DNA from: Planotetraspora phitsanulokensis | GTDB lineage: Bacteria > Actinomycetota > Actinomycetes > Streptosporangiales > Streptosporangiaceae | Length of the DNA: 64,000 nucleotides | Direction: 5' to 3' | Assembly (NCBI RefSeq): GCF_016863295.1 | Contig: NZ_BOOP01000001.1 | Span: forward strand, 186,001 to 250,000 | In this document: positions 34,535-37,031 of the stretch, one piece after another | Layout of the letters: the number at the start of each line of letters is the position of its first letter | Position numbering within the stretch: the first letter of the stretch is position 1 | Made by a program: the position numbers and the translations under genes | The notes under the pieces: generated by a model | Seen by the model: only the letters and a program-made list of their open reading frames with translations | Database searches by the model: none | What the model was told of the DNA's origin: nothing

Positions 34535-34893
34535 TCCCGGAACGGCTCGGGCCGTATCGAAAGTGGATGGAAAGTCGGGAGGACGGGTTCCATGCGCTCC
34601 GACTGCTTACCGATGGTGTCGATGTGTGGAGCCTCGCGGAGTTCACGGGCCGCACGGCTCAGGAGATCACACGTCGTAGTGGAGCTTGAGCTCGCACCTG
34701 CCACTTCGCCACATGCGCCGATGACGCCGAGTAGCGCCCTGACCAGGCAATACGGCTCTCAACGTCTCCCGTCGACTTCCGACGTTTACGGCCTCAAACG
34801 GAACTGAAACGGAACTGTCGGCGTCGACATTCGGGCTTCCTCAGGCCGAGCGCCCTTCGATGAAGTCGCCGACGGTAACAGCAGCAAGCCTTA
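34535..34893. other. Non-coding stretch left of the composite element
   Basis: About 360 bp with no convincing gene. A short frame ending at 34689 reads G-P-Y-R-K-W-M-E-S-R-E-D-G-F-H-A-L-R but has no recognisable family and a poor start. CGGAACTG is repeated near 34798. The stretch ends in the TTA that marks the left junction of the element at 34894. Confidence 0.4.
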
Positions 34894-35044
34894 GAGCCTG
34901 CTGACAAAGGATCTGGACGCTGAAGCCGGGACAGGGATGCCCTGGTCGAGCCCCTCTTCGAGCGATACGCCTGCGGACAGAGCGGGCTCCTGATAGCTGA
35001 GGTGTTCTTTACGCAACTCGGCAACCAGGAGCCCGCTACCGGTC

Positions 35045-35248
35045 TTGCCCAGTCCCGACCGGCGCGGCACGGTTCTGGAACTCCTGGCCGCCCGGCCCTG
35101 GCGTGCCTGGAGAGGGACCGAGTTGGCCGCCACCCTCAGAATCGAGAACATCAACTGCTTTCGCGCCCAACTGTCCCAATGGTCCCACCAGGGCTCCATC
35201 AACAAGATCGGGCCAGCCCTCTACGGTCCCATGCCCACGAGCACTTAA
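35045..35248 (+). CDS. Small winged-helix-like protein or fragment
   Basis: A 67-codon frame. After a variable start, V-L-E-L-L-A-A-R-P-W-R-A-W-R-G-T-E-L-A follows, then L-R-I-E-N-I-N-C-F-R-A-Q-L-S-Q-W-S and G-S-I-N-K-I-G-P-A-L-Y. The pattern (helix, R-G-x-E-L-A helix, Q-L-S-Q-W recognition-like helix, short wing) resembles stand-alone winged-helix domains seen in actinomycetes. It may be the C-terminal scrap of a larger protein. It is the only other coding-like content of the element. Confidence 0.35.
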   Translation: MPSPDRRGTVLELLAARPWRAWRGTELAATLRIENINCFRAQLSQWSHQGSINKIGPALYGPMPTST

Positions 35249-35361
35249 GCTTTCGTCAGCCGGCTCGGAGTCCTGGAGCTACGGCTAACCACCGCTCAGC
35301 TGATCAGTGGGTACGTCGGTGAGGTGCCAGGACCTATATACGGGTGATGCCGGGAGAGCCG

Positions 35362-35889
35362 CTACACTCCCGTGGCCCCATCGATGCGCTCCCGGATCAG
35401 GTCGGCGTGCCCGGTGTGCTGCGCGTACTCCTCCAGGAGGTGGATGTAGATCCAGCGGAGGCTGACCTTGCCGGTCGGCGCCCGGGGGTCGTCGGCCAGC
35501 TCCTCGAGGTCGATGTCCGCAACCGCGGCGTCGCAGGCAGCCGTCTCCGCGAGGAAGGCGGCGTAGTCCGCCTCGGCGTCGGCGTCGGCCACCAGGTCGA
35601 AGTCGCCGTCTTCGTACTCCTTCGTGATGTGCAGCTCGGGCAAGTTTTCGTGCAGGAACTTCTCCCGGAACCACCAGCGCTCGACTTCCGTCATGTGTCG
35701 CAGGAGGCCGAGCAGCGTCAGGTTGGACGGCTCCACGGAGGCGGTCTTCAGTTGCTCGGAGGTGAGGCCGGCGCATTTGCGCAGCAGGAACACCCGGCGG
35801 AGCTTCAACCAGTTATCCAGCATCTCGCGTTCGCCACAGGCCATGTCCGTCCGAGGTCCCCGCTCTACGTCAGGTGCTGTCCACGTCAT
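35362..35889 (-). CDS. DinB/DUF664 family protein (element cargo)
   Basis: A 175-residue four-helix-bundle protein. LLRHMTEVERWWF places His65; EEYAQHTGHADLIRERIDG places His158 and His161, together the metal triad of DinB-like folds. These are small-thiol-dependent or metal-binding proteins often induced by DNA damage or stress; the actual reaction is unknown. An upstream AT-rich stretch contains the likely promoter. It is enclosed by the inverted repeats at 34894 and 36033 and so looks like the passenger gene of the element. Confidence 0.8.
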   Translation of the reverse strand: MTWTAPDVERGPRTDMACGEREMLDNWLKLRRVFLLRKCAGLTSEQLKTASVEPSNLTLLGLLRHMTEVERWWFREKFLHENLPELHITKEYEDGDFDLVADADAEADYAAFLAETAACDAAVADIDLEELADDPRAPTGKVSLRWIYIHLLEEYAQHTGHADLIRERIDGATGV

Positions 35890-36036
35890 GTCACCATCAT
35901 GACGACCTGCGCAACCGATTTTGCGGGGTACGCGCGTATCTTGCCCGCCGCCGGGTGTATCGCTCGAAGATGGGGCTCGACCAGGGCATCCCTGTCTCGG
36001 GCCTCAGCGACCAAATCCTTTGTCAGCAGGCTCTTA

Positions 36037-36963
36037 GAGCGTGTTTGAGATGGGTGGCGGGTTTCAGCCGATGGTGTAGCGGGGCTGTCGGCGGGCGGGT
36101 TCGCCTCGGGTGATGCGACGGGTCATGCCAGCGATGGCGGCCCAACGGATAATGGCTTCGGAGACCTGGGGGTGGCGTTCGTAGTCGCGGGCTAGGCGTC
36201 GGCAGGCGGTGAGCCAGGCCAACGTCCGCTCGACAACCCACCTGCGGGCGATGACGTTGAATCCCCGCTGGTCGGCAGGCTTGCGGACGACCTCGATCGT
36301 GGTGCGCAGGGTCTCTTTCGCCCAGTCCACCAGACGGCCGGCGAAGCCCTGATCGGCGAACACGTACCGGATCGGCGTGGTCAGATACGCCCCCAGCAGG
36401 GCTGACTTGGCGCCATCGCGGTCTTGCCAACTGGCGGCCATCACCGCAACGGTGACCAGCAGTCCGGTGGTGTCGGTCACGATGAACCGTTTCCTGCCGT
36501 TGATCTTCTTTCCGGCGTCGTAGCCGCGGCTGTCTCGCCCGACGGTGTCGGCGCCTTTGACGCTCTGGGAGTCGATGATTCCCGCCGAGGGCTCGCCTTC
36601 GCGGCCCGCCTGCTGACGGGCCTTGATCCGTAGCTCGGCCAGCAATCTGGTGGTGACGCCTGCCTGTTCCCACTGGTTGAAGTACCAGTACACCGTCTGC
36701 CACGGCGGCAGGTCAGTAGGCAGATATCGCCACGGGCAACCGGACCGCACCACGTACAAGATGGCGTTGACGACCTCCCGGCGCGGATGCTTTTCCGGCC
36801 GGCCGCCGGAGTTCGGATCCGGCAGCAAGGGCTCGATTAACTCCCACTGCGCGTCGGTCAGGTCTGAGGGGTAACGACCAGGGGGCACTCGACCACCCTG
36901 GCGACAAATCGGACAGCCGTCACACCGCCACGCCGGAGATCAACGATCTTCTCAAACACGCTC
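36037..36963 (-). mobile_element. IS5-family insertion sequence (927 bp)
   Basis: Terminal inverted repeats GAGCGTGTTTGAGA (36037-36050) and its complement (36950-36963) are perfect over 14 bp. A TTA duplication flanks the element (36034-36036 and 36964-36966), as in the IS427/IS1031 groups that use TNA targets. It contains one intact transposase gene and no passenger. Its left TTA is also the right TTA of the adjoining unit, so the two abut. Confidence 0.9.
36064..36888 (-). CDS. IS5-family DDE transposase
   Basis: A 274-residue transposase. The N-terminal part LTDAQWELIEPLLP and NAILYVVRSGCPWRYLP are the IS5-type start. The catalytic residues are D106 (IIDSQSVKG), D179 (FADQGFAG) and E220 in RRWVVERTLAWL (the Y-(2)-R-(3)-E-(6)-K region). 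The gene is intact and in one frame, so the element may still be active. Confidence 0.92.
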   Translation of the reverse strand: MPPGRYPSDLTDAQWELIEPLLPDPNSGGRPEKHPRREVVNAILYVVRSGCPWRYLPTDLPPWQTVYWYFNQWEQAGVTTRLLAELRIKARQQAGREGEPSAGIIDSQSVKGADTVGRDSRGYDAGKKINGRKRFIVTDTTGLLVTVAVMAASWQDRDGAKSALLGAYLTTPIRYVFADQGFAGRLVDWAKETLRTTIEVVRKPADQRGFNVIARRWVVERTLAWLTACRRLARDYERHPQVSEAIIRWAAIAGMTRRITRGEPARRQPRYTIG

Positions 36964-37031
36964 TTAGAAGCCCCCTGAGTTCCAGGAGCACATGATCGAC
37001 GACGGTATACGTGACGCGCACCGACCAGTGC

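Follow-up and report, generated by a model that had tools for sequence, protein, structure and literature searches.

Mobile insertion cassettes are defined, in the passage of PMC3913671 devoted to them, as a passenger gene between the ends of an insertion sequence (IS), with no transposase gene and with a target duplication. That passage also reports the mobilisation of MIC231A1 in trans by the IS231A transposase. According to a 2008 review, no elements other than those of the IS231 group, in the IS4 family, had by then shown this modular habit (PMC2266710). In the IS5 family, IS1248 gives co-integrates with two bordering copies, which the authors' account of these products reads as replicative transposition (PMC3281130).

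The locus described here was found in Planotetraspora phitsanulokensis, in a stretch of 64,000 nucleotides that was analysed as a whole (the window). A cassette of 1,140 bp at 34894–36033, with TTA on either side, adjoins an IS5-family IS. The earlier note on this DNA knew of no described unit of this form; mobile insertion cassettes have been described, beginning with MIC231, in the portion of PMC3913671 that introduces them. Very probably, a TNA-duplicating IS5-family IS gave rise to this mobile insertion cassette, the inner parts of the IS copies were eroded, the cassette was moved in trans and spread between soil bacteria, and the neighbouring IS is independent of it.

Anatomy of the cassette and its parent element

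The inverted repeats that bound the cassette (34894–34971 and 35954–36033, ~78 bp) are 91.25% identical over 80 columns. On alignment evidence, the cassette is composed of a left end, a piece of transposase, a decayed right end, a captured gene, and an inverted copy of the left end. These parts and the adjoining features are as follows.

34891–34893, no strand: TTA, left copy of the cassette's target duplication (TNA flank pattern of 85 ends)
34894–35035, + strand: left end of the parent IS, with the 17-bp terminal repeat GAGCCTGCTGACAAAGG, the remainder of the ~78-bp repeat, and a subterminal hairpin
35030–35040, + strand: junction from loss of most of the transposase gene, also in Nonomuraea sp. 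NEAU-A123, L110/L066 (alignment)
35033–35248, + strand: remnant of the parent transposase C-terminal extension, ~residues 305–376, 79% identical to the L118 transposase
35250–35266, − strand: right end of the parent IS, decayed, CTTTCGTCAGCCGGCTC, three mismatches against the 17-bp repeat
35267–35953, no strand: captured DNA, its left boundary set by the start of homology to the IS-free copy L111 (G187)
35362–35889, − strand: cargo gene for a 175-aa mycothiol-S-transferase/DinB-type protein (Pfam)
35954–36033, − strand: cassette right end, which is the parent left end again in inverted orientation (typed left, score 34 versus 7)
36034–36036, no strand: TTA common to the cassette and the neighbouring IS
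36037–36963, no strand: neighbouring IS5-family IS, separate and apparently intact, with 14-bp perfect ends GAGCGTGTTTGAGA
36064–36888, − strand: transposase of the neighbouring IS, 274 aa, NF033580, DUF4096 and DDE_Tnp_1
36964–36966, no strand: TTA, right copy of the neighbouring IS's target duplication

The paired inverted repeats around a DinB gene, the intact IS with perfect 14-bp ends after a shared TTA, the TTA at three junctions, and the GAGC that begins both elements were all noticed in the earlier note, and all were borne out. The arms of the hairpin (34981–35004 and 35014–35037) are 24 nt long and 83% complementary, and they are kept at the left ends of many relatives. To the left of the cassette, a stretch of ~165 bp (34665–34830) has matches of 81–88% at at least 12 places in genomes of the genus, the window's own included.

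The parent IS is 1,282–1,294 bp long, has the same 17-bp ends as the cassette, and contains one ORF (375 aa in L118) with an IS5-type DDE domain. Intact copies, in which the ORF is unbroken and the TNA repeats match, are L117, L118, L200, and L038, from three genomes, and L115 is a copy with a frameshift. The TNA duplications of the parent are taken here to recall the IS1031 subgroup of the IS5 family. Against NF033580 (cut-off 110 bits) the parent transposase scores 180.9 bits and the neighbour's transposase 227.8 bits. The parent transposase ends in a C-terminal extension of ~75 aa that has no Pfam match; extension and transposase form one frame in L117 and L118. The 79% identity between the frame at 35033–35248 and residues 305–376 of this protein indicates that the frame is a remnant and not a gene. 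A separate winged-helix gene was considered and rejected because the frame is continuous with the transposase in both of these copies. A winged-helix fold was not confirmed at 35033–35248 (model mean pLDDT 59, no Pfam match), and a comparison of the frame with PDB sequences gave no match better than E 0.25. The initial description of a winged-helix-like frame with no transposase therefore holds in its second half, the catalytic part being missing, and fails in its first, the frame being a transposase C terminus.

Three further arrangements were observed among the parent's relatives. L212:98–2893 is a parent IS copy split by a Mutator-type (PF00872) transposase gene. At L118:3719–6605, two diverged parent-type ISs lie inverted ~340 bp apart, left ends outward; both have TNA repeats of their own, and the layout resembles the presumed cassette precursor. 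In a Nonomuraea genome (G184), further end matches lie near contig ends (C12, C24, C25, C40, and C51), as would be expected from a multi-copy IS.

A 16-bp end pattern had 56 occurrences, spread over 30 of 338 family genomes, compared to one among the matches listed for the reversed control, which excludes chance. The flanks of 85 distinct ends have T at −3 (77/85), any base at −2, A at −1 (79/85), and C at −4 (65/85). Since the ends read GAGC...GCTC, an element that inserts at CTNAG re-creates this sequence at each junction, and this can explain the landing of another TNA-targeting element there. A scan of 64 sequences (533,399 bases, regions around many of the 137 end places) gave 15 end pairs with matching TNA, compared to none in 20 scans with shuffled 17-mers. 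Nine pairs had unlike TNA; among them are L115, L197, L212, and some cross-pairs between ends that are nested or adjacent. The matched pairs are three parent ISs (L117, L118, and L200), L212, and 11 that bear genes. The matched pair of L212, one end of which has five mismatches, is probably spurious.

Related cassettes and copies of the cargo gene

The 11 gene-bearing pairs carry eight cargo types in all, seven of them added by the ten pairs besides the window.

DinB-type gene: window, L110, L104
GNAT acetyltransferase: L195
LRR protein, two sites: L196 (TTA), L198 (TGA)
SDR and MerR regulator, broken IS: L116
ECF sigma factor and CU044_5270-family protein: L217, 3139–4829
SigJ-like sigma factor and SDR: L218
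nitroreductase and LysE-type protein: L220
ORF without a Pfam match above cut-off: L215

The repeats thus recur as pairs in other genomes, with and without a transposase and with other cargo, a positive outcome of the check that the earlier note proposed. The transposase gene is absent from nine of the 11 gene-bearing pairs and is long but broken in L104 and L116. Ten of the 11 have two left ends, and L195 has a left and a right end; a right-right pair was not seen among the 11. One end of L217 is marginal in left/right typing (8.0 versus 7.5); the L217 cassette may be a mobile unit of regulation. L197, which has left-right ends and an alpha/beta hydrolase gene, was not counted as a cassette because its TNA flanks are unlike. 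The GNAT gene has counterparts of 87–91% identity in 11 of 12 genomes searched from genus g30, to which M. bryophytorum and M. hainanensis belong, and of 80% identity in two species from the same genus as the carrier. The closer match in g30 suggests that this cargo was probably captured from another genus. A search with the flanks of the GNAT cassette found cargo-like genes and no empty site.

There is about an even chance that these pairs represent IS5-based modular cassettes that circulate in the family as a general design, in which single genes or small operons come to lie between two inverted left ends of one IS, the transposase gene is lost, and the cassettes move in trans as interchangeable units, with left ends favoured. 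The preference for left ends over right would then arise because the transposase works better on left ends.

The cargo ORF of the window (35362–35889) matches PF04978 (mycothiol-S-transferase, E 6e-42) and PF05163 (DinB, E 4e-07) and is probably a detoxification gene. Among the matches listed, a DinB region of 94–99% identity occurs in 12 of the 341 family genomes, counting the window's own, and these belong to four genera; beyond these 12 the next match by E-value is 69% identical over 467 bp, and shorter stretches of the region reach up to 89% elsewhere. An order-level search added no copy (12/345). The DinB protein gave nine pattern matches and no relative in viral_contigs, and no plasmid record had 80% query coverage, the best being a Nonomuraea gerenzanensis record at 25%. 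No internal stop or gap interrupts the aligned part of any of the 12 copies, and the mean dN/dS is 0.19 (28 pairs, eight copies aligned over 175 residues). The open frames and this ratio are as expected of a cargo gene that is retained for function.

Nine of the DinB copies are IS-linked and three are IS-free (L111, L113, and L114). The nine occupy eight sites, since L107 and L109 have a common flank. Six of the nine are without one end or part of one, and the flank limits of these end-truncated copies are approximate. The right end of L107 is flanked by TTG and not by TNA. In the IS-free L111, homology starts where the parent right end stops in the cassette. L104 (Microbispora bryophytorum) is a long form of 2,055 bp flanked by TAA/TAA in which the transposase region is present and its C-terminal part is out of frame. 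The window's transposase-deletion junction recurs in L110 (Nonomuraea sp. NEAU-A123), which lies at a site unrelated to the window's, shares no flank with it, and is bordered by TCA/TCA in the window's orientation. This recurrence suggests that movement of the deleted form in trans is probable. In G163, an uninterrupted locus aligns with the left flank of L110 (93% over 249 bp) as far as the TNA, which covers the left half only. The parent right end is less decayed in L110 (one mismatch). The right end of the cassette is short in the window, L104, and others and longer in L110. With the deletion common to the window and L110 and the short right end common to the window and L104, either one of these traits was gained twice or recombination occurred.

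Formation, mobility, and the neighbouring IS

Replicative transposition within a replicon can yield inverted IS copies on each side of a gene. Formation of the cassette would begin when two IS copies come to flank a gene in inverted orientation, possibly by this route within one replicon. Their inner parts would erode and leave the two outer left ends, on which an IS5-type transposase supplied in trans could act, and the cassette would then spread between genera. None of the DinB copies seen had a complete IS on both sides of the gene. The window's genome (a draft of 95 contigs) lacks a transposase of the parent kind; a search with the parent transposase found only the neighbour's at full length (51%) and otherwise fragments. 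The cassette is therefore probably stranded there unless it is cross-mobilised. The earlier note had also proposed a search for empty sites with a single TTA, and a clean one for the window insertion was not found in four congeners. Homologues of the left flank are present in three of the four and a homologue of the right flank in the fourth, on different contigs.

The cassette might instead be immobile debris, a decayed composite transposon that was mobile only while one of its IS copies made transposase. It is single-copy in a genome with no cognate transposase, and many DinB copies elsewhere have lost one end, as such a history would leave them. The identical deletion junction, shared by two genera at sites that have no relation to each other, argues against this reading, as do the nine target-duplicated, gene-bearing pairs that have no transposase gene. 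Independent identical deletions, or transfer followed by recombination, could mimic the two-site junction. We regard the debris explanation as unlikely, and a transposase-less cassette that moved in trans as the preferred reading. The suggestion of a non-autonomous transporter of a DinB gene with IS5-family ends is upheld by an autonomous relative with the same ends and by the same-deletion copy at an unrelated site.

A second alternative, in line with the earlier note's suggestion of mobilisation by an IS5-type transposase, is that the neighbouring IS mobilises the cassette and the two form a working pair. The neighbour is 927 bp long with a single transposase ORF (NF033580, E 1.6e-67). It is the sole full-length IS5-family relative that a search with the parent transposase gave in the window's genome, both elements begin with GAGC, and both groups insert at TNA. 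However, its transposase is only ~50–51% identical to the parent's, its terminal repeats differ from the cassette's after GAGC, and a much closer transposase is known with exactly the cassette's ends. These differences also led to the rejection of the neighbour as the parent of the cassette. An abutting IS with its own repeats and the same TNA was one clear case among 96 distinct TNA-flanked ends, 12 of which had less than 800 bp of outward sequence. A working pair is unlikely, and the independence of the two elements is preferred.

The idea that the IS habitually targets the junction was rejected on the same survey, which returned two rows only, the window and L208, and the candidate repeat at L208 has two mismatches and does not start with GAGC. 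At most a target preference is shared; the neighbour's position fits a shared TNA preference in a rare arrangement. The neighbour is very probably an independent TNA-targeting insertion at the flanking TTA, and either element may have been first. Relatives of the neighbour are also found at TNA (for example L120, TAA/TAA; L128, TGA/TGA), and the repeats of L123 do not match. The L120 relative (766–2388, 1,623 bp, TAA/TAA) combines a transposase ORF with a further ORF of 177 aa, for which the only Pfam match, ABC2_membrane_2, is below cut-off; this element may represent a transporter IS in the neighbour's group.

It is extremely improbable that the 78-bp repeats serve regulation or replication and have nothing to do with transposition, as the hairpin just inside the left repeat might suggest, because in other genomes these ends enclose intact transposase genes and are flanked by TNA duplications.

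Relation to known systems

By the definition as worded in PMC3913671, the cassette is a mobile insertion cassette. IS inverted repeats bracket it, the C-terminal remnant (residues 305–376) is all that is left of a transposase gene inside it, TTA/TTA forms its target-site duplication, and its passenger, a PF04978 mycothiol-S-transferase, is unrelated to transposition. A cognate transposase in the same genome, a usual and not a defining feature, is absent. Movement in trans by a related transposase is likely on the sequence comparisons. The cassette is not a composite transposon, which has two full IS copies; the window has one deleted copy and an inverted left end of ~80 bp, and L104 has one long IS copy and one left end. 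Nor is it a MITE, being 1,140 bp long, coding, and present once in its genome.

These cassettes would offer ordinary chromosomal genes a route to independent mobility with very little DNA, since an IS copy and a short inverted left end make a cassette of 1–2.5 kb. Their cargo spans detoxification-type enzymes and sigma factors. The left-left rule provides a direct test of end preference in IS5-type transposases. Annotation based on transposases would be expected to miss cassettes that have no transposase gene. An IS5-derived cassette set in this actinobacterial family was not found in open-licence papers, where absence proves little. What is new here is such a set in one actinobacterial family and the left-left design.

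Both the parent and the neighbour belong to the IS5 family by their IS5-type DDE transposases and match NF033580; the parent differs by its ~75-aa C-terminal extension. Transporter ISs, as PMC3129680 presents them, resemble L104 in having a transposase region and a passenger, whereas in the window cassette the transposase is missing its catalytic part. TIME-COMP elements, in the account given by PMC4133298, have transposase-less ends around a core and resemble composite transposons, as the cassette does, but they are Tn3-derived with 5-bp duplications, and the cassette is IS5-derived with TNA. The closest likeness in design is to MIC231 of Bacillus cereus and mic-qnrD, which, in the descriptions drawn on here, have a passenger between IS ends, no transposase gene, and a target duplication. 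Trans-mobilisation is on record for MIC231A1 in the section cited above and is probable for the present cassette. MIC231 has the ends of IS231, an IS4-family element, whereas the cassettes described here have IS5-family ends, with left copies on both sides in 10 of 11.
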